This document shows, in pieces, positions 57 to 7,887 of a DNA stretch of 7,887 bases. The stretch is from the NCBI GenBank assembly GCA_018667995.1, contig JABIQT010000512.1, positions 1 through 7,887 on the forward strand. Direction: 5' to 3'. The number at the start of each line of letters is the position of its first letter. Positions within the stretch are counted from its first letter, which is position 1. The translations under genes and the position numbers were made by a program. A model generated the notes under the pieces. The model did not search any database. It was not told the origin of the DNA and worked only from the letters and a program-made list of their open reading frames with translations. The DNA is from Candidatus Latescibacterota bacterium (GTDB lineage: Bacteria > JAAXHH01 > JABIQT01).

Positions 57-1040
57 TCACTTGTGGAAGGTATTCTTGATAAACGCGAAAAGCGAGAAGC
101 GACGGGGATCGATCAACGCCAGAACGGGCTCAAAGATGGCCCCACCACGCACACCGTTCGTCAGCATTACTATGCCATTGCCTGTTGGAGGATCCCCCAG
201 GACGAAGTTCTGGAACGGGGCACCCGCTCCGCCACCTATATGCCAGAGAATGGAACCCGCCGGTGTGACTTCGATGCCCCACCCCATTCCCCAGCACTGA
301 TTCTCACCCAGCGAGACCTGCGGTTCCCCCATTCGTACACCGATGCTTCCCGAGTGCATTGATCTCAGGCACGAGGCCAAAAAGAGAGCATAATCGCCGG
401 CGGTGGTCAGGAGGCTGTCGGCGTCGGGAACGGATAGACGCCTATCGTCGATTGATTCCCCGTTGGTTCCGTGGCCCTGAGCCATCAGGGGGGCCATGCG
501 ATCCTGCCAGACAAAACTACTTGCCTTCATGGACAGGGGCCGTAGTACGTTTCCCATCATGTTTTCGTCGAAGGGCACCCTCGATATCCTGTCAATTGCG
601 TGCTGAAGAATTTCGTAGCCCTGCGTAGAGTATTGCCAATTTGAGCCGGGAGAGAAGGAGAGACCGGCACCACCATCCGAGTCCGAAAGTCCACTTATAT
701 GGCTTAGGACCATTCGTGGTGTTATGAGTCTCAACCTTTTGTCTCGCATCCCAGTATTGGCAAATAGGCCGTCCTCGAAGGGTGCGTCAAGATCCAGCAG
801 TCCAGCTTCACTCATCTGAAGCGCCCGATAGGCTACGAGTGGTTTAGTGAGCGAATAAGCCTCAAAGATACTGCGAGACCCCATTGGTGCCCGGGTTCCA
901 GTATTTCTCATGCCTAGGGCAATGGACTGAACCACTGCAAATTCCCTGACGATGGCCAATGCGACCCCTGGAACTTGGTGAAGTCTCAAGATTTCGGATA
1001 CTTCGTCACATAGCATTTCCGTGAATAAGGAGGAGCGCAT
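57..1040 (-). CDS. Beta-lactamase-fold serine hydrolase (class C / esterase EstB-like)
   Basis: This is a 327-residue protein of the beta-lactamase-related serine hydrolase family (class C beta-lactamase, DD-peptidase and esterase relatives). The nucleophile motif SLTK is at residues 63-66 (Ser63, Lys66) and is followed by the usual helix ending in GLLDLDAPF. LSHISGLSD near 112-120 and FSPGSNWQYS near 129-138 are typical family blocks. The second motif reads Y137-S-T instead of YxN, as in many esterase-like members. HIGG at 267-270 fits the third-motif position. No signal peptide is visible, so a cytoplasmic location is likely from this start. Start choice is weak: the ATG at 1040 lacks a well-placed Shine-Dalgarno, an in-frame stop lies about 13 codons upstream, and Met9 (position 1016) is the alternative. 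The substrate cannot be inferred; family membership is secure. Confidence 0.88.
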   Translation of the reverse strand: MRSSLFTEMLCDEVSEILRLHQVPGVALAIVREFAVVQSIALGMRNTGTRAPMGSRSIFEAYSLTKPLVAYRALQMSEAGLLDLDAPFEDGLFANTGMRDKRLRLITPRMVLSHISGLSDSDGGAGLSFSPGSNWQYSTQGYEILQHAIDRISRVPFDENMMGNVLRPLSMKASSFVWQDRMAPLMAQGHGTNGESIDDRRLSVPDADSLLTTAGDYALFLASCLRSMHSGSIGVRMGEPQVSLGENQCWGMGWGIEVTPAGSILWHIGGGAGAPFQNFVLGDPPTGNGIVMLTNGVRGGAIFEPVLALIDPRRFSLFAFIKNTFHK

Positions 1041-1326
1041 GTCTGTGATGACGGAGTGTTCCTCTGGTTTCGGAGCTCAGGAAGATGGATGGCCACTGTG
1101 GGCGCACTAACGCTCATATGGACCCGCAGTCCCGATTAGTGGGCAATCTGTAAATTGACCTTCTTTGGGAATGACGGAATAGGTTTGGCAGGCTGCTTCG
1201 GGATGATATGTGCAAGTCCCGCCGCGTGACTACGAGCGGCAACCGCATGCCATGGGTAACAGTGATAGCAGCAAAGCAGACATTGAAATTGAAGACTGAT
1301 CTCTAAGTCAACGGCACCAAACTGTC
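1041..1326. other. Intergenic stretch, no gene recognised
   Basis: These 286 nt separate the serine hydrolase from the YCII-like gene. Minus-strand reading gives only short open stretches broken by stops, none recognisable as a protein family. I see no tRNA and no hairpin plus T-run that would make a convincing terminator. A promoter for the serine hydrolase may lie here, but no clear -35/-10 pair stands out. Confidence 0.5.
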
Positions 1327-1614
1327 CTATGATTTCGGCAGCTCGCAGACCTCAATGGAGCCACCGCTTATGATAGTCGGGTGGCTCTTCAGTAAATCCT
1401 CAAGTTCCTCAAGATTGTCGGCATCAAATCTCATGTATCCGTCTATGTGATTCGTGACGTCCGGTACAGCCTTGGTTCCAACAGTAGACCTTGCGCCTAT
1501 GGCGCTGCCGCCCCGAAACAGGCCGCTTTTACGAACCATCTGGAAGAAGGCATCCCATGATTCTCTACTTGGCTCTGTATCGGTATTCGAGTGCATAAAG
1601 GTGATGTACTCCAT
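1327..1614 (-). CDS. YCII-related small protein
   Basis: This 95-residue protein resembles the YCII/DGPF-type family, which are small ferredoxin-fold proteins. The N-terminus is a short beta strand (EYITFMHS). A helix carries SWDAFFQMVRKSG near residues 19-31, followed by the glycine turn FRGGSAIG. The C-terminal half has the family-typical strand-helix-strand: GYMRFDADNLEELEDLL at 59-75, then HPTIISGGSIEVCELP at 78-93. The DGPF motif itself is absent, so it belongs to a divergent branch. The start is well supported by a strong Shine-Dalgarno. Biochemical function is not known for most members; some relatives are fused to sigma factors or act as small hydrolases, so no role is assigned. It stands alone, with gaps on both sides. 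Confidence 0.75.
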   Translation of the reverse strand: MEYITFMHSNTDTEPSRESWDAFFQMVRKSGLFRGGSAIGARSTVGTKAVPDVTNHIDGYMRFDADNLEELEDLLKSHPTIISGGSIEVCELPKS

Positions 1615-1618
1615 AACG

Positions 1619-1623
1619 CCTCC
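1619..1623 (-). promoter_or_regulatory. Strong ribosome binding site of the YCII-like gene
   Basis: The minus strand reads GGAGG four bases before the ATG at 1614. This is a near-perfect anti-16S match and fixes the start of the YCII-like gene. It also argues that the overlapping minus-strand frame running on through this point to 1565 is not the translated one. Confidence 0.7.
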
Positions 1624-1633
1624 GGGATTTTAC

Positions 1634-1896
1634 AGATGAAATGACCTGTCCTGTCCATTCATTTGCCTGGCAATCCAGAACGGACGAAGCGATGTACTTG
1701 GCCACTTCTCCATGGTCTGATATACGACTATTGCCGGTAAATACGGTTCGCCCGCTAGTAACTATGATAGATTGAGCATAGTTTAACAGATACGCCAGCG
1801 TCAATCAAGTGCCTTCACGGCCCGGCCACCGTGTAAGCCTACACAACGGCACGCTGTCGAATATTGAGCGGAACATTCGCTATCTTTGTAGTCAAT
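1634..1896 (-). pseudogene. Possible remnant of a short-chain dehydrogenase (SDR)
   Basis: Two minus-strand fragments in different frames resemble the ends of an SDR oxidoreductase. The first (about 1804-1896) contains IDYKDSE, then GLHGGRAVKALD, which recalls the N-terminal TGxxxGxG dinucleotide-binding turn and following helix, and stops at 1801. The second (about 1634-1708, open from 1804) reads GEVAKYIASSVLDCQANEWTGQVI near its end. This matches the common SDR C-terminal pattern 'EEVAxAIAFLxSDxAxxxTGQVI'. The whole catalytic middle, including YxxxK, is missing, and a frameshift separates the pieces. The second fragment runs into the start of the YCII-like gene in another frame. I infer a heavily deleted pseudogene; chance resemblance is possible, especially for the N-terminal piece. 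Confidence 0.25.
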
Positions 1897-2174
1897 CTCA
1901 ATGGCACGGCAGGAACGGAGGACAAACACGACTGAATACGAGATATGAGGATGTCTTTTGTCTGTATGGTAGAGCGGAGGTTTCAGCGGAGAAGAATGGA
2001 GCACAGGGCGTAATGGTATCTGGAACTGGATATTGTAAGAATCGAGAATTGGTGGATCTGCGGCCACTGCTGTGGGCAGATGCCAGTTCCCAGGCATACA
2101 TGGGGTCTCACGTGAGCATTTCAGTGACTCAGCTGCCGATGAAGAACTGGATAGAATAGCTTATTGAAGTACAC

Positions 2175-2741
2175 CTATTCGAACCAGGTGGTCAATTTTG
2201 AAGCCGGAATCCGAGTCTGATCTGGTACTTCAGCTGGATATCCGGCATAGAGGAATCCGACGATTTCCTCTTTCGCCGTGTCCACCTTCAGGATATTCGT
2301 CGCCTCGGGATGGGTAGTAAGAGCGCTGGTGCTCCATTGCATACCGATGCCTTGTTCCCAAGCCGCGAGCGTAATATTGTGAATTGCACAGGAGACGGAG
2401 GCGTAATCCTCCCGCGCCCTGAACGCATCGTCACTCTTGAGGCATGTAATCCCGATAATGGTGGGTTTGGACACAAGTTTTTCGTAACCCTTTCGACTGG
2501 CAATTTCCAGAACGGCAGGATCATCGGACTTGGTTTTGCCTACCTGAATTTTCCGGTAGACATCAGCAAGTTTCTTCTTTGTGTTGCCATTTACCACTAG
2601 GAAGCGCCACGGTTCAGTACTTTTGTGATTAGGTGCCCAGACGGCACATTCAAGGATAGCCGCGACGGTTTCATTGGTCAATGACTCCGGGTTGAAATCA
2701 TAAACACTGCGCCGGTTTCGGATTGTCTGAACGATGGACAT
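2175..2741 (-). CDS. Nitroreductase-family FMN-dependent oxidoreductase (YdjA/small type)
   Basis: This 188-residue protein has the length and layout of the compact, cytoplasmic nitroreductase subgroup, which binds FMN as a homodimer and uses NAD(P)H. The N-terminal FMN-phosphate-binding block is RNRRSVYDF at residues 8-16 (Arg10, Arg11, Ser12). APNHKSTEPWRFLVV at 36-50 is the second conserved block, with the Pro-Trp-Arg-Phe flavin contact region. GIGMQWSTSA at 131-140 and EEIVGFLYAGYPAE at 158-171 complete the family pattern. The ATG at 2741 is preceded by AAGGA and GAAGG stretches. It follows the Feo cluster by 81 nt on the same strand, so it may be a distal operon member or have its own promoter. 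Its substrate is unknown; a link to flavin or iron reduction is only suggested by position. Confidence 0.92.
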   Translation of the reverse strand: MSIVQTIRNRRSVYDFNPESLTNETVAAILECAVWAPNHKSTEPWRFLVVNGNTKKKLADVYRKIQVGKTKSDDPAVLEIASRKGYEKLVSKPTIIGITCLKSDDAFRAREDYASVSCAIHNITLAAWEQGIGMQWSTSALTTHPEATNILKVDTAKEEIVGFLYAGYPAEVPDQTRIPASKLTTWFE

Positions 2742-2822
2742 GAACCTTCGATCCTTTCTGTATACTCTTGGCCAGGTCGACCGATATTTTGTTCGCCCTG
2801 CCCTAAGGACGCCCGTGTATTG

Positions 2823-3044
2823 TTACGTTTCTCTATTGCCAGCAGTTCTACCAGTTTGGACGTCAGGATTGATATCGTTTTCTAAGGAAACGAGTGACTG
2901 CGAGCTTGTCTCTTGTGATCCGCAATGGGAGCATCCGGGGCACCCTTCTTTCTCCCGTGTTGAGAACTGGCGAATTAAGCTCCGCACGACGAACAGGGCC
3001 GCACCCGTGACAACGGCGTAACCCATGTAGTCTTGTATATCCAT
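2823..3044 (-). CDS. FeoB-associated Cys-rich small membrane protein
   Basis: This 73-residue protein has one predicted N-terminal membrane helix (about residues 7-22, GYAVVTGAALFVVRSL). A basic stretch follows, then a Cys cluster CPGCSHC (Cys35, Cys38, Cys41). A helix followed by a short CxxC-rich cytoplasmic segment immediately downstream of feoB is the hallmark of the FeoB-associated Cys-rich membrane protein family. About 32 polar residues follow the cluster with no recognisable motif, longer than in the minimal members I know of. The start lies 3 nt after the feoB stop, so the two are almost certainly co-translated. By family analogy it may bind iron or an iron-sulfur cluster and assist or regulate FeoB, in place of FeoC, which I do not see here. 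That role is inference. Confidence 0.8.
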   Translation of the reverse strand: MDIQDYMGYAVVTGAALFVVRSLIRQFSTREKEGCPGCSHCGSQETSSQSLVSLENDINPDVQTGRTAGNRET

Positions 3045-3047
3045 AGC

Positions 3048-5213
3048 CTACCCCAATCCAAGTCCGATCCCGGTCTGATAGACAATCAGCGATGCTAGGT
3101 ACGCTAATCCGGTCATATAGGAGACCATTATAGTTGGCCAGAGCCAACTGTTTGTTTCGCGCTTAACTATGGCCACGGTGGCCATACACTGACAGGCGAG
3201 AACAAAGAACACCATAAGTGACACTGCCACGAGAGGGGTGTAAACACGCTCACCTGTCACCGGGTCCGTTTCGTTTCGAAGCGCTGTCCTCAGATCGACG
3301 GAGGTCTCACTGGCCTCCTCCACATTGTAGATCGTAGCCATTGTGCTAACCAGAACTTCGCGTGCAGCAAATGAGGTGATCAGTCCGATACCCAGTTTCC
3401 AATCAAACCCCAAAGGTTTGATTGCAGGCTCAATGGCGTGTCCCAGTTGCCCGGCATAACTTTCGGATATGCGCTCACGCGGCGTGAGATTGTCAGTACT
3501 GTCGGCCTGTGGATAGGAAGCCAGAAACCAAAGCACGATGGAGATGGCTAAGATGATCTGGCCAGCGTCTGTTATGAAGATTCTAGCTCGCTCGTACATC
3601 TGCATGAGCACCCATCGAATCGATGGACGCCGATATGGTGGCAATTCCATAATAAACGAGGTGGGCGTGTCCGATTGTTTTAAAACGCGCTTGAATACGA
3701 GAGCTGCCGCAATGGCTGCGCAGATACCCAGCAGATACATGGTCAAGAGGGTCACGCCTGGCAGTGAGAAGATCACTAGGACGGGTTCGTTCGGCACGAA
3801 TGCCCCGATCATGAGTACATAGACGGGCAATCTCGCGCTGCAACTCATCAATGGTGCAATCATGATGGTGATGAGTCTGTCACGAGCGCTGGAAATGGTA
3901 CGTGTTGCCATGATGCCGGGAATGGCGCACGCGAAGGACGAAAGCAGTGGTATAACGGATCGACCGGATAGTCCGAGGCTCTTCATGAGCCTGTCCATCA
4001 AGAAGGCAACTCGTGCCATATAACCGGTATCTTCAAGCAAGGCCAGGAAGAAGAACAGGAACAGTATCTGCGGCAGAAACACGAGAACGGCACCGACACC
4101 GGCAATAATACCGTCAACGGTCAAGTTCCGAATCATGCCTTCCGGCATTTGAGTGGCAGCTGCTGCACCAGCACTAGCGACAGCAGATTCAATGAGGTCC
4201 ATAGGCCATTCTGCCCAGGAAAAGACCGTCTGGAAGATCAGAGCAAAAAGCACTACCACGATGATGGGCCCGGCGAACCTATGAGTAAGGACCATGTCTA
4301 GGCGTACGCTGATACTATCTATTTCTGGGCGTACTTCACGCACCGTGTCTGCGTAGATCTCATCGATTTGTCTATAGCGTAGCGTGGCCTCGAGCATTCG
4401 CCAGGAGATATCGCGCTCCTCCAACTGTGCTCTTGCGTCGGCTACGAATTCATTGAAGTGAGCAAGGCAGTCAGGAGGTCCATCGATCTGCCGCCACACG
4501 TCTGCAGAGATATCGCTGGATATGATCCTCAGCGCTTCCGCGATTCGCGCGGAAGATGAAAGCTCAGTGTGCTCTATCAGCCAATCGGATACCGGAGCAA
4601 TGGATGTGCTTATTGTATCATCCAGCGATAGTATGCCATCTGGAAGCTCTGGCGACGGGTTCTTGATGGCCGCGAAGATTTCTTTTCGCAAGAGATCGAT
4701 GCCCGTTTCGCGTGTGGCAACGATGGGTACTACGGGGACAGAAAGCCGTTTTGAAAGCGCCTGAACGTCGATATGAACACCCGCGTTCTCGGCGCTGTCC
4801 ATCATGTTCAGTGCGACAATAACGGATATATCAAGGTCTATTACCTGTGAGACCAGGTATAGGTTCCTGCTCAGATTAGCGGCGTCCACTACAACGACGA
4901 CGAGCTTGATATTGCCGTCTTCGTGTGATTCACCCAGCAAAACATCCCGGGCTATTTTTTCGTCAAGTGATTTAGGATTGAGGCTGTACAGTCCCGGCAG
5001 ATCATGAAGAGTAGCCACGGCGCCTTCAGGGCCGTCCATGATTCCTGACTTACGCTCCACCGTGACGCCGGGGTAGTTTCCAATCTTCTGGCGAAGACCG
5101 GTAAGCGCGTTGAAAATCGAAGTCTTGCCTGTGTTCGGATTCCCAATAAGAGCTACGTCAGCGGGGGCGAGCTGATTGGGCGGAATATCTATAGTGGGCG
5201 CTGTCTTTGACAT
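3048..5213 (-). CDS. feoB: Ferrous iron transporter FeoB
   Basis: FeoB imports Fe(II) across the inner membrane. Numbering from the ATG at 5213 (721 residues), the N-terminal G domain shows G1 GNPNTGKT at 24-31, the switch region around NYPGVTVE at 46-53, G3 DLPG at 71-74 and G4 NMMD at 136-139. A helical spacer (about 200-308) leads to the polytopic membrane part from about 309. Both Gly/Cys gate motifs are intact: FACAIPGI at 427-434 and SCSARLP at 457-463. The late ACQCMATVAIVKRE block (673-686) is also family-typical. An in-frame TTG at 5243 would add 10 residues and overlap feoA by 14 nt, but has no Shine-Dalgarno. The ATG, 16 nt after the feoA stop, is preferred. The gene is complete, with no missing catalytic motif, and its neighbours are feoA upstream and the Cys-rich protein downstream. 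Confidence 0.98.
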   Translation of the reverse strand: MSKTAPTIDIPPNQLAPADVALIGNPNTGKTSIFNALTGLRQKIGNYPGVTVERKSGIMDGPEGAVATLHDLPGLYSLNPKSLDEKIARDVLLGESHEDGNIKLVVVVVDAANLSRNLYLVSQVIDLDISVIVALNMMDSAENAGVHIDVQALSKRLSVPVVPIVATRETGIDLLRKEIFAAIKNPSPELPDGILSLDDTISTSIAPVSDWLIEHTELSSSARIAEALRIISSDISADVWRQIDGPPDCLAHFNEFVADARAQLEERDISWRMLEATLRYRQIDEIYADTVREVRPEIDSISVRLDMVLTHRFAGPIIVVVLFALIFQTVFSWAEWPMDLIESAVASAGAAAATQMPEGMIRNLTVDGIIAGVGAVLVFLPQILFLFFFLALLEDTGYMARVAFLMDRLMKSLGLSGRSVIPLLSSFACAIPGIMATRTISSARDRLITIMIAPLMSCSARLPVYVLMIGAFVPNEPVLVIFSLPGVTLLTMYLLGICAAIAAALVFKRVLKQSDTPTSFIMELPPYRRPSIRWVLMQMYERARIFITDAGQIILAISIVLWFLASYPQADSTDNLTPRERISESYAGQLGHAIEPAIKPLGFDWKLGIGLITSFAAREVLVSTMATIYNVEEASETSVDLRTALRNETDPVTGERVYTPLVAVSLMVFFVLACQCMATVAIVKRETNSWLWPTIMVSYMTGLAYLASLIVYQTGIGLGLG

Positions 5214-5229
5214 GGACCGGTCGGTTCTC

Positions 5230-5457
5230 TTATATCTTATCAACTAGAATGGCGTGGGCTTCCGATCGGCGAATTGAAAGGTGGTAGCCTCGCACTCGGA
5301 GCTCGATGGGGTCCCCCAGCGGGGCCGTTTTTATGAACTCAACCTGAGTTCCCACGAGCAAGCCCATCTCCATAAGATGTGCTTCTTCGTTGGTCTTACC
5401 ACTAATGCTACTGATTACGGCCTTATCGCCCGGTAGAAGTGAGTCAAGTGAGCACAT
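5230..5457 (-). CDS. feoA: Ferrous iron transport accessory protein FeoA
   Basis: FeoA is a small cytoplasmic SH3-like protein required for full FeoB activity, probably by contacting its GTPase domain. The 75-residue length is standard. Typical family features are LLPGDKAVISSISG near the start, EAHLMEMGLLVGTQVEF in the middle (the MGLxxG turn), and PLGDPIELRVRGYHLSIRRSEA near 46-67 followed by the final strand ILV. It is a separate gene, not fused to feoB. Its ATG lies 14 nt inside the end of the upstream membrane-protein gene and has no strong Shine-Dalgarno, so translational coupling is likely. feoB follows after 16 nt. Confidence 0.97.
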   Translation of the reverse strand: MCSLDSLLPGDKAVISSISGKTNEEAHLMEMGLLVGTQVEFIKTAPLGDPIELRVRGYHLSIRRSEAHAILVDKI

Positions 5458-5950
5458 GTTTGGAGGATTCCGGTGAGGGTAAATTCTCGAGCATTGAATC
5501 GCCCAGGATCGGCAATAGGCTTCTTTCGCGACGTTTCTTCAGTGATACGATTTGATGAATTACGTATCCGGCAATCCAAAGACCAGACGTTACACAGTGG
5601 ACCACGATCCATATTGTGCGCCACTGCTCGGTAACGGTAACCTGAATCATGTACCCGGAGCCTATCATGGGTACCAGGGTCATAATCATACTGAGCCCAC
5701 TCCGGCGACCTGTTTTTGTGCCCGAATTACGGTGGATAGAGACATGTCTATTCCAAATCATCCCCACGGCAAAGATCATGAGTGGAGCCGCCAGGACGTG
5801 GAGATGCTGGGTGTCCGGCTGCCACGGATGATTCACCACGGAAAATCGATCGACCGGCAGCATGAGATACCGCATTGCCGCGTATACTATACCAGTGACG
5901 CCTACCAGTATCGTGGCGCCGTGGACGAACCAGGCCTCAGAGCGATTCAT
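5444..5950 (-). CDS. Four-helix His-rich membrane protein, b-type cytochrome-like
   Basis: This 168-residue inner-membrane protein has four predicted transmembrane helices at about residues 8-30, 50-67, 86-104 and 110-136. Histidines cluster at helix ends: His10 (helix 1), His41, His49 and His51 in NHPWQPDTQHLHVLAAP before and into helix 2, His69 and His73 after it, and His118 and His132 in helix 4. This is the layout of small di-haem cytochrome b or DUF4405-like quinol:acceptor proteins, but I cannot place it firmly in a named family. The NHPWQP-QHLHVL segment looks like a conserved signature. The ATG overlaps the stop of the FMN-binding gene as ATGA, and its own end overlaps feoA by 14 nt. 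The context suggests it passes electrons from quinol across the membrane to the periplasmic FMN protein. Membrane topology is well supported; haem and function are inference. Confidence 0.8.
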   Translation of the reverse strand: MNRSEAWFVHGATILVGVTGIVYAAMRYLMLPVDRFSVVNHPWQPDTQHLHVLAAPLMIFAVGMIWNRHVSIHRNSGTKTGRRSGLSMIMTLVPMIGSGYMIQVTVTEQWRTIWIVVHCVTSGLWIAGYVIHQIVSLKKRRERSLLPILGDSMLENLPSPESSKHVLT

Positions 5951-6507
5951 TTACCGATGCCATCCTTCAATATCTGGTGCACTGCGAGCACACGCCGAAC
6001 GGCATCGGTGGTGACACGGGCAGTGAGTGTGGCGCCGGCCATTTGACGAATATCACGTTTAAGAACGAGTGCCTCATGCAGATGCTGATCAACGAACTGT
6101 TGATACCACACATCCTTTGGGATGTAGTCCGTTGGCTCATTGAACGAAAGAAGTTCGATTCTTTTGACACGATCCTTGGAATTTACAACAACCATGATCG
6201 TTTCGGGAAGCGTACGGACAATGTGGGCATCGAAATATGCCGTCCCTATGACACTTCCATCTTTTTTGGCTACGTACGGGTGCACGATGGCGCTGGTTAT
6301 CTCCGAATTTGACAGTCCGGCGGCATCTGTGATTTGTTGTTGCGTCAGATATATGGTAGTTCGTTCGACGGCGCAATCTGGAAATGCCAGTCTTAAAGCC
6401 TCATCTACCGTAATGAAAACCTTGGCAGACACTGATGTTGGCGTGCTCAAGAGACATCCGAAAAGCAATAAAAGTGCAGCACGTACCAGGCAGGACTTCC
6501 ACGCCAT
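5947..6507 (-). CDS. Secreted FMN-binding-domain protein (ApbE flavinylation target)
   Basis: This 186-residue protein has a clear Sec signal peptide (basic MAWKSCLVR, hydrophobic core, likely cleavage after SVSA near residue 28), so it is periplasmic. The mature part is a single FMN-binding domain of the NqrC/RnfG C-terminal type. Its flavinylation motif is GATLT at 158-162, in MAGATLTARVTTDAVRRVL, with Thr162 the expected phosphoester-linked FMN site. The position before the glycine is Ala157 where Ser or Thr is more usual. The domain is followed by a short helix to the C-terminus, as is common. A GGGAG Shine-Dalgarno precedes the start, which overlaps the apbE stop by one base (TAATG). The gene for the modifying enzyme lies directly upstream and a putative membrane electron donor directly downstream. 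The role as a one-flavin electron carrier is well founded; Fe(III) as acceptor is inferred from the Feo genes. Confidence 0.88.
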   Translation of the reverse strand: MAWKSCLVRAALLLLFGCLLSTPTSVSAKVFITVDEALRLAFPDCAVERTTIYLTQQQITDAAGLSNSEITSAIVHPYVAKKDGSVIGTAYFDAHIVRTLPETIMVVVNSKDRVKRIELLSFNEPTDYIPKDVWYQQFVDQHLHEALVLKRDIRQMAGATLTARVTTDAVRRVLAVHQILKDGIGK

Positions 6508-7571
6508 TATCTGGACTCCCGTGACGGAATGATCTCTACATTTACGCTCTCGTATACATCCAATATTTGGTCCGCAAGCCCACTCGTAATGCGGGCACGA
6601 ATTCCCTCTTTGGATGTTTGAAGTACCACTGCTTCAATGCCACTGCGGCACGACACCCATTCTATTGCTGATTCCGGGCCCATGACGAAAAGGCCTGTAG
6701 AGAGGCAGTCAGCCGTCAGGCTGTCATCTGCAAATACCGTAATGGTACCGAAATCGGGTGCCGGAAAACCGCTTCTGGGATCAAGAATATGGCTATATGA
6801 GACCCCGTCAACTTCTATGCCTCTCTCACTATTCCCGGAGGTGGCCAGAGAACCCTCATTGATAGAGAGTTTGATAACCATGCTATCTCGCCGTCGAGGA
6901 TCAGCAAGGCCGATTTCCATCGGTTTCCTGGAACTTTGAACGGCAATCTGCCCTCCCAGATCGATGGAAGCAGCAAATACGCCTTCTCCACGGACGGCCT
7001 CCATGGCAGAATCAATCCCGGCGCCCTTGCCGAATCCGCCTTCCTCTATCTGCAACCCAGAGCGTAACCTCGATGCGGTGCGGCCGTTGAAGTCCATATA
7101 GAGCATGCCGCATGACTCCAAAGCCTTTTGAATCTCACTTTTGACAGGACGACGCCCTCCAGTTCTTAAGCCCCAGGCTGAGACGAGCGCTCCAATGGCG
7201 GGATCGAATGCTCCGTCTGTCTCACGCCACCAATGCCTGACTGCGTGCAATTCCTTCGCAAGCTTATCCGAGAGATCAAACGGTCTTCCGCGATCGTTGT
7301 GATTCAGCCGGCCGAGTTCCGTACCTGTCTTCCAGGTAGAGAGGCGATGCTCGGTAGTCTCCAAGGCGCTAAGCGCTCTTTCGCTGGCGGCTAAGGCAGT
7401 TGCTCTGTCTACAGCATCTACGGTGATAACTAGGGTTGTACCCATTACGCCGAGACGCCGCTCCAAACGAACCGACTCCTCCACCTCAGCATGACAGTAG
7501 TCTGGCACACACATCGTAAGAAGGAGTAGCATGGTAGCGGGGTAAGTGACAGGCATCACGTTTCTTGACAT
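6507..7571 (-). CDS. apbE: FAD:protein FMN transferase (ApbE family)
   Basis: This 354-residue enzyme transfers FMN from FAD to a Thr of target proteins, in a Mg-dependent periplasmic reaction. The N-terminus is a signal peptide ending near residue 28 (after CHA). Cys21 is preceded by LTM, which is a poor lipobox, so a soluble or signal-anchored form is more likely than a lipoprotein. Family blocks appear in order: MGTTLVITV at 43-51, W80..GTELGRLN at 83-90, GAFDPAIGALVSAWG at 120-134, EEGGFGKGAGID at 176-187, SIDLGGQIAV at 202-211, SHILDPRSGFP at 260-270, and ADCLSTGLFVMG at 287-298, with metal-site Asp288 and Thr292. The Glu at 176 replaces the more common Asp, a conservative change. Its likely client is the FMN-binding protein encoded next, whose start overlaps its stop. 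The ATG overlaps the stop of the upstream barrel gene (TGATG). Confidence 0.95.
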   Translation of the reverse strand: MSRNVMPVTYPATMLLLLTMCVPDYCHAEVEESVRLERRLGVMGTTLVITVDAVDRATALAASERALSALETTEHRLSTWKTGTELGRLNHNDRGRPFDLSDKLAKELHAVRHWWRETDGAFDPAIGALVSAWGLRTGGRRPVKSEIQKALESCGMLYMDFNGRTASRLRSGLQIEEGGFGKGAGIDSAMEAVRGEGVFAASIDLGGQIAVQSSRKPMEIGLADPRRRDSMVIKLSINEGSLATSGNSERGIEVDGVSYSHILDPRSGFPAPDFGTITVFADDSLTADCLSTGLFVMGPESAIEWVSCRSGIEAVVLQTSKEGIRARITSGLADQILDVYESVNVEIIPSRESR

Positions 7572-7887
7572 CAGAATATGTATCCCAGCGCGCCGTTAAC
7601 CTGATTGATGCCCGTTTTGGCTTCGTTGCTAATACGTTTGAAATCGGCTTTGAAGACAATACGACTCTCCGGATAGAACGAAAGACCTGCGGTGATAGAT
7701 TTGATGTCCTTGGACGGATTACTGGAGAAACCAATCGGAACCGAACTTTGGGTGTTATATCTTTCGTAACGTATATATGGCATCAGTGTTACTTCATTGA
7801 AACTCGTACGCGCCAGCACGTCGTAACCTGTTTGCGCATAGAATCCCTGCATCACATCTCCAACAGACTGGTTGCCGGTGAGTCCAA
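7571..7887 (-). CDS. Outer-membrane beta-barrel (porin-like) protein, C-terminal part
   Basis: Only the last 104 residues are in the window; the frame stays open to the window edge, so the gene is 5'-truncated here. The visible part is a series of amphipathic strands of outer-membrane barrel type: FYAQTGYDVL, VTLMPYIRYERYNT, ITAGLSFYPE, IVFKADFKRIS and a final VNGALGYIF. The C-terminal aromatic residue with alternating hydrophobics is the usual barrel-assembly signal. The pattern 'PYxRYERYxT ... GLxxYP ... KADFxR ... NxxLGYxF' resembles porins of the phosphate-selective porin type, but the specific family cannot be fixed from this fragment. Its stop shares a base with the apbE start, so it belongs to the same operon. 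The operon promoter should lie further upstream, outside the window. In-frame GTG/ATG codons near 7855 are internal, not starts. Confidence 0.75.
   Translation of the reverse strand, partial: GLTGNQSVGDVMQGFYAQTGYDVLARTSFNEVTLMPYIRYERYNTQSSVPIGFSSNPSKDIKSITAGLSFYPESRIVFKADFKRISNEAKTGINQVNGALGYIF

Follow-up and report, generated by a model that had tools for sequence, protein, structure and literature searches.

A predicted porin–flavoprotein–cytochrome cassette within Feo operons as a probable portable ferric reductase

Analysis of the window, which is the whole of a 7,887-base contig (C88) from a 6.06-Mb genome (G000; 85% complete, 1165 contigs), revealed that genes for a porin, ApbE, an FMN_bind protein and a four-helix membrane protein form a conserved cassette, which in the source phylum is built, as judged from gene content and order, into a feoA-feoB operon. 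We read the complete run as a reduce-and-import iron operon in which the cassette would act as a portable ferric reductase, one that occupies the same place as FoxB-type PepSY_TM proteins and is not intrinsically tied to Feo, and we give this reading a probability of roughly two in three. The cassette is probably a flavin–heme reductase module that can move between contexts, was recruited into Feo operons and is used for iron. The taxonomic group of the source genome comprises 16 genomes and is referred to here as the phylum; in public records, close relatives go under the names Zixiibacteriota, Gemmatimonadetes or Latescibacterota.

The minus strand of the window carries a run of eight genes: the end of a barrel gene (7571..7885), apbE (6507..7571), the FMN_bind gene (5947..6507), the four-helix gene (5444..5950), feoA (5230..5457), feoB (about 3048..5213), the gene for a FeoB-associated Cys-rich membrane protein (2823..3044) and a nitroreductase gene (2175..2741). 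The barrel gene and apbE overlap by 1 nt, as do apbE and the FMN_bind gene; the overlap is 4 nt between the FMN_bind and four-helix genes and 14 nt between the four-helix gene and feoA. Gaps of 16 nt and 3 nt separate feoA from feoB and feoB from the Cys-rich gene, respectively, and 81 nt lie between the Cys-rich gene and the nitroreductase gene. Because the first seven genes overlap or lie at most 16 nt apart, they very probably form one transcript that is largely translationally coupled. Promoter and terminator scans of the window gave chance-level results only, so transcript structure was judged from gene overlaps and from relatives; the start of the window's operon falls outside the contig. 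A scan with Rfam yielded zero matches at gathering thresholds, and positions 1000–3100 gave one chance-level match only. An earlier note on this DNA had placed seven genes on one strand in the order given here, and all seven were found, on the minus strand and overlapping or nearly abutting. Its list of members was right for those seven but omitted the nitroreductase gene, which belongs to the same run. Elsewhere in the window, positions 57–1040 encode a serine hydrolase of the beta-lactamase family (PF00144, E 2e-38), for which none of the class C beta-lactamase models exceeded its cut-off, and positions 1327–1614 contain a 95-aa ORF without a Pfam or NCBIfam match.

ApbE, an extracytosolic FAD:protein FMN transferase, matched PF02424 at 205 bits (E 1.8e-60; curated cut-off 25.6), and its N-terminus is hydrophobic by inspection. 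The secreted FMN_bind protein, its predicted substrate, matched PF04205 at 24.0 bits (cut-off 22), has a signal-like N-terminus and carries the motif GATLT at residues 158–162, with the Thr160 codon at 6030–6028. The motif is of the [S/T]GA[S/T] flavinylation type and in the window reads AGATLT, with A rather than S/T at the first position. Among 69 FMN_bind relatives, 68 keep GA[TS]x[ST]; the sole exception (L149, 8780–9238) reads SGSTLT. Judged by this motif, FMN should be carried on Thr160 of the FMN_bind protein, attached there by ApbE.

FeoA matched PF04023 (E 4.3e-20), and FeoB scored 535 bits against TIGR00437 (cut-off 316) and contains the motifs GNPNTGKT, DLPG and NMMD of its GTPase domain; the feoB ORF opens at a TTG at 5243, with an ATG at 5213. 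With both protein profiles and the GTPase motifs present, the window encodes a Feo Fe(II) transport system. FeoB transports Fe(II) only. The FeoB-associated membrane protein, with cysteines at C35, C38 and C41, matched PF12669 at 27.5 bits (cut-off 27), and the nitroreductase-family flavoprotein matched PF00881 (E 1e-25). The downstream place of the latter is conserved in the phylum, its gene following the FeoB-associated gene in every relative's operon whose contig extends that far (L020 stops within feoB). Nitroreductase and Thioredoxin_9 genes were both seen downstream of the FeoB-associated gene in L010–L015, L017–L019 and L054–L061, where the contig extends; in the window, the place downstream of the nitroreductase gene lacks a Thioredoxin_9 gene. 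Two other contigs of the same genome, G000:C287 and G000:C1013 (L063, L016), carry an additional, divergent feoA-feoB pair and another apbE next to Rnf-complex-like genes.

The four-helix protein is predicted to be a di-heme cytochrome b from its AlphaFold model, its invariant histidines and its fold matches. The model (pLDDT 92) has helices at residues 3–28, 44–76, 82–104 and 108–155. Five residues, H51, H69, H118, H132 and Q103, do not vary among the 48 relatives; H41 is shared by 46 of them and H10 by 33. Helix position and positive loops would place H51 and H118 towards the periplasmic side of the membrane and H69 and H132 towards the cytoplasmic side, which is the arrangement expected for two hemes b held between helices 2 and 4. 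The inner heme may alternatively be ligated by H10, which would yield an FdnI-like set. H118 and H132 are 14 residues apart, the same distance as between the ligands on helix 4 of FdnI and HyaC. Fold comparison of the model returned cytochrome b6, FdnI, HyaC, CybB (5oc0, Z 10.0) and a designed di-heme bundle, with Z of 10–11.5, a range in which helical bundles also match by chance, and the structural alignments to b-type cytochromes showed 17% identity or less. The resemblance to di-heme b cytochromes is therefore best called suggestive, in a model whose membrane-helix histidines and fold are like those of FdnI, HyaC, cytochrome b6 and CybB, but whose second invariant pair, H51 and H69, lies on one helix, 18 residues apart.

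Profile searches placed the window's four-helix protein above cut-off in zero curated families. It had no match to PF03929 (PepSY_TM), PF14358 (DUF4405) or PF01292 (cytochrome b561/Ni_hydr_CYTB); 4 of the 48 relatives matched PF14358 weakly (best E 0.0099), and 11 of 48 matched PF01292 (best E 8.8e-6). A sequence search of solved structures gave chance matches only, and viral contigs contained no relative of the protein. Four conserved histidines in a central position are also found in the small membrane proteins of the DUF4405 and FezC kinds, which bind heme b and have links with apbE or ferrosomes (Huang et al. 2024 mSystems, PMC11334425). In contrast to the window protein, with its four modelled helices and no DUF4405 match, DUF4405 has six transmembrane segments and FezC is homodimeric (PMC11334425).

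Only the last 104 aa of the barrel lie inside the window, because the contig ends there, and this fragment matched BBP2 below cut-off (E 0.029). The earlier proposal of a barrel was thus weakly grounded in the window alone, whereas full-length relatives make its identity as a porin clear: the fragment is 52–58% identical to the full-length barrels of L010–L014. For the L010 barrel, AlphaFold gave a model with the 16 strands of a 16-stranded porin fold, which was closest to OprO/OprP (Z 27.5 and rmsd 3.2 over 309 residues for OprO), with general porins at about 24. This likeness makes an anionic substrate, for example a ferric chelate, plausible as far as the model goes. The PF07396 profile matched 9 of 31 barrel relatives (best E 1.5e-5), with no match for the L010 barrel. 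In the barrel alignment (A5), mean column identity was 50%, compared with 38% for the four-helix protein, and invariant Glu and His residues, including E127, E129, E131, H174 and E175 (L010 numbering), possibly line a metal or chelate path. The barrel was also considered as a second flavinylation substrate of the DUF3570-like kind, which was rejected, [ST]GA[ST] occurring in only 4 of 57 barrels.

Five further phylum genomes (G011, G012, G009, G004 and G006; L010–L014) show the gene order of the window, with the Cys-rich gene of L010 detected by profile only, and the arrangement is therefore not a product of chance. We consider it very improbable that unrelated genes are simply packed together on the contig. 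The cassette and Feo do also occur apart, most of the cassette being gone from G013, which retains Feo, and G170 having kept the cassette beside a feoB fragment only; against this, the gene ends overlap, the order is conserved in six phylum genomes, and a similar linkage is found in Acidobacteriota with another gene order. In G013 (L015), the cassette is a remnant in which the barrel start is joined to a damaged four-helix gene, followed by intact feoA-feoB; positions 8075–8257 and 7857–8087 of this locus mark a large internal deletion, which reflects either the natural disappearance of the cassette from a Feo operon or faulty assembly. Where loci extend to the operon start, phylum operons are headed by a DtxR-type regulator with both iron-dependent repressor domains (PF01325 and PF02742). 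In the interval between regulator and barrel of L010, L012, L014 and L020, a hairpin after the DtxR-type gene (e.g. ACTATCG...CGATAGT) is a candidate terminator. An AT-rich inverted repeat just before the barrel, ATACATTG and CAATGTAT separated by 15 nt in L012, is a candidate operator at the operon start, as is the corresponding repeat ATATATTG/CAATATAT in L010.

Comparison of feo operons across the phylum revealed that, within one taxonomic order, the cassette alternates with a PepSY_TM gene of the FoxB type (PF03929, E 6e-53). In genomes without the four-helix gene, every contig that covers both feoA and feoB has the PepSY_TM gene between the two. Four genomes have the cassette only (G000, G004, G011 and G012), none of which has such a PepSY gene anywhere in the genome; three loci have both (G009, G006 and L020); eight genomes have PepSY_TM without the four-helix gene (G002, G003, G005, G007, G008, G010, G014 and G015); and one has the remnant, with no intact operon having neither. 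The association gave a Fisher p of 0.015 across 14 genomes and 0.09 inside the one genus showing both states, both values being uncorrected for kinship. The swap is confined to one small phylum, and mostly to one genus, so it represents few independent events. In L058 (G007), the PepSY_TM gene spans two frames (8170–9406), a possible fresh pseudogene or sequencing error.

FoxB-type PepSY_TM proteins (FoxB, FsrB, HiuB) are known or proposed periplasmic ferri-siderophore reductases, and in B. japonicum (Bradyrhizobium) FsrB passes Fe(II) to FeoAB (PMC10760861; PMC13001220). That a gene of this known reductase type changes places with the cassette makes the reduce-then-import reading plausible, and by analogy the swap is the strongest argument that the cassette may reduce ferric iron for FeoB. 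The two systems would share periplasmic ferric reduction feeding FeoAB, and the PepSY_TM gene stands in the feo operon of close relatives; FoxB, FsrB and HiuB differ in having no flavin partner or porin and in belonging to another protein family, and the cassette either replaces or accompanies PepSY_TM.

In the mechanism that we propose, the porin would admit Fe(III), probably as a small anionic chelate. The four-helix protein would bind two hemes b, the outer one between H51 and H118 and the inner one between H132 and H69, or between H132 and H10 where the latter is present. Electrons from the quinol pool would enter these hemes and pass to the FMN that ApbE is predicted to attach to Thr160; the flavoprotein would then reduce Fe(III) in the periplasm, and FeoB would import the resulting Fe(II). 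The earlier note had likewise suggested that the four-helix protein feeds a flavinylated protein beside FeoAB and a porin, and at the level of gene content this gains support from the interchange with PepSY_TM and from iron-type regulators beside the cassette in relatives, DtxR-type in the phylum and Fur in some Acidobacteriota.

A reversed electron flow, from periplasm to quinone as in a CybB-like superoxide oxidase, or a module for copper or manganese, appears quite improbable. CybB is indeed among the fold matches of the four-helix protein, and DtxR-family regulators can sense Mn. A PepSY_TM protein, CrpH, has been linked to copper-oxidase function (PMC13038864). However, FMN_bind proteins and ApbE are partners in electron export chains (PMC8238504), the operon contains FeoAB with its Cys-rich partner, and elsewhere the cassette is associated with Fur.

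Beyond the phylum, a profile of the four-helix family detected the gene in 100 of 396 sampled Acidobacteriota genomes (about a quarter), nearly always as part of a cassette with porin and FMN_bind genes, with or without apbE, and a 384-genome sample centred on the window contained it in 13 genomes, seven of them from the phylum. Neighbouring genes were called by codon position; in GC-rich genomes, antisense ORFs overwhelmed the clustering of ORFs. In 60 Acidobacteriota neighbourhoods, the four-helix gene always lies beside an FMN_bind gene, usually with the barrel gene and apbE as well, in several orders. In L107–L116 and L119, loci from a group of closely related Acidobacteriota genomes, the barrel, FMN_bind and four-helix genes are present and apbE was not recognised within 20 kb. 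A feoB gene is adjacent in only 4 of 80 four-helix-bearing Acidobacteriota genomes (G059, G378, G331 and G416; 0.34 expected, kinship uncorrected), while FeoB_C occurs somewhere in the genome in 64 of the 80. Fur genes lie within 8 kb of the four-helix gene in 17 of the 80 (0.54 expected, kinship uncorrected), and in 15 of these cases fur is upstream and in the same orientation. Two Acidobacteriota loci (L021 and L106) read fur-feoA-feoB-Cys-rich-apbE-barrel-FMN_bind-four-helix, an order unlike that of the window. In L125 (G170), the cassette is intact and a short FeoB fragment with a GTP-binding motif (13399–13737) lies between fur and apbE; this locus was left out of the Feo-linked count because its feoB is a short fragment. 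For a cassette contig from Planctomycetota (L022), no end overlap was found with the feoB contig of the same genome (L074). The tree of the four-helix family contains at least two changes of Feo linkage; a single origin is also possible.

The earlier note had described the module as dedicated to iron import through Feo, and this does not extend outside the phylum. It had named as contrary evidence that the cassette genes usually occur in relatives without feoAB, and this is what the neighbourhood survey of Acidobacteriota found. Since the cassette mostly occurs there without feoB, it is better described as a stand-alone module that is enriched near iron genes and has become linked to Feo in certain lineages. 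Neither Feo nor Fur adjoins the majority of Acidobacteriota cassettes, so another electron acceptor is possible. In its broadest form, this would make the cassette a general periplasmic electron outlet, serving respiration, extracellular electron transfer or some other acceptor, with the Feo linkage incidental or only regulatory. The rarity of adjacent feoB and the unrelated neighbours of stand-alone cassettes, e.g. MutL, fit such an outlet, which we nevertheless regard as unlikely: Fur and feoB adjacency are both well above chance, PepSY_TM replaces the cassette inside the same feo operon, and none of the cassette genes was recognised as encoding a terminal oxidoreductase. We retain the portable ferric reductase as the preferred reading.

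Gene clusters that combine flavinylation with iron transporters are already a described class (Meheust et al. 2021 eLife, PMC8238504), comprising MsrQ-like, PepSY-like, DsbD and NQR/RNF-like systems with VIT1, as well as P19/FTR1 clusters, with TonB also named. The window has the features of such a cluster, with ApbE, an FMN substrate, a membrane electron-transfer protein and an iron transporter together, and clusters that join ApbE, an extracytosolic FMN protein and an iron transporter were read in that paper as assimilatory iron reduction. It differs in that the transporter is FeoAB (the words FeoA and FeoB are absent from PMC8238504), in that its small four-helix membrane protein fits none of the classes of the paper, and in that the cassette includes a conserved OprO/P-like porin. 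Acidobacteria and b561 are mentioned in neither PMC8238504 nor PMC11334425, and our literature search found no paper combining FeoB with flavinylation and ApbE, or FeoB with flavinylated and ferric. The earlier note did not know of this seven-gene arrangement being characterised as a unit; the broader class of flavinylation–iron transporter clusters was already described, with VIT1, P19/FTR1 and TonB rather than FeoB (PMC8238504). Membership of this known class, together with a four-helix protein outside the curated families, points to an iron reductase that relies on flavinylation, includes a cytochrome not described before and was recruited into Feo operons.

Which periplasmic enzyme supplies Fe(II) from inorganic ferric iron is often not known, as stated for B. 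japonicum (PMC10760861); here, a candidate reductase lies inside the Feo operon itself. A wider proposal, for and against which we see the chances as evenly balanced, is that the four-helix proteins are small di-heme b cytochromes of a family not yet described and, with FMN_bind, ApbE and an OprO/P-like porin, make up a portable ferric reductase of the periplasm that is common among Acidobacteriota, built into Feo in some lineages and interchangeable with FoxB-type proteins, and that it could be the kind of Feo-feeding reductase still sought for inorganic iron in B. japonicum. The alternation of the cassette with a FoxB-type gene between close relatives amounts to a natural replacement experiment, and the predicted four-helix cytochrome adds to the known range of membrane proteins that may pass electrons to flavinylated proteins in the periplasm.
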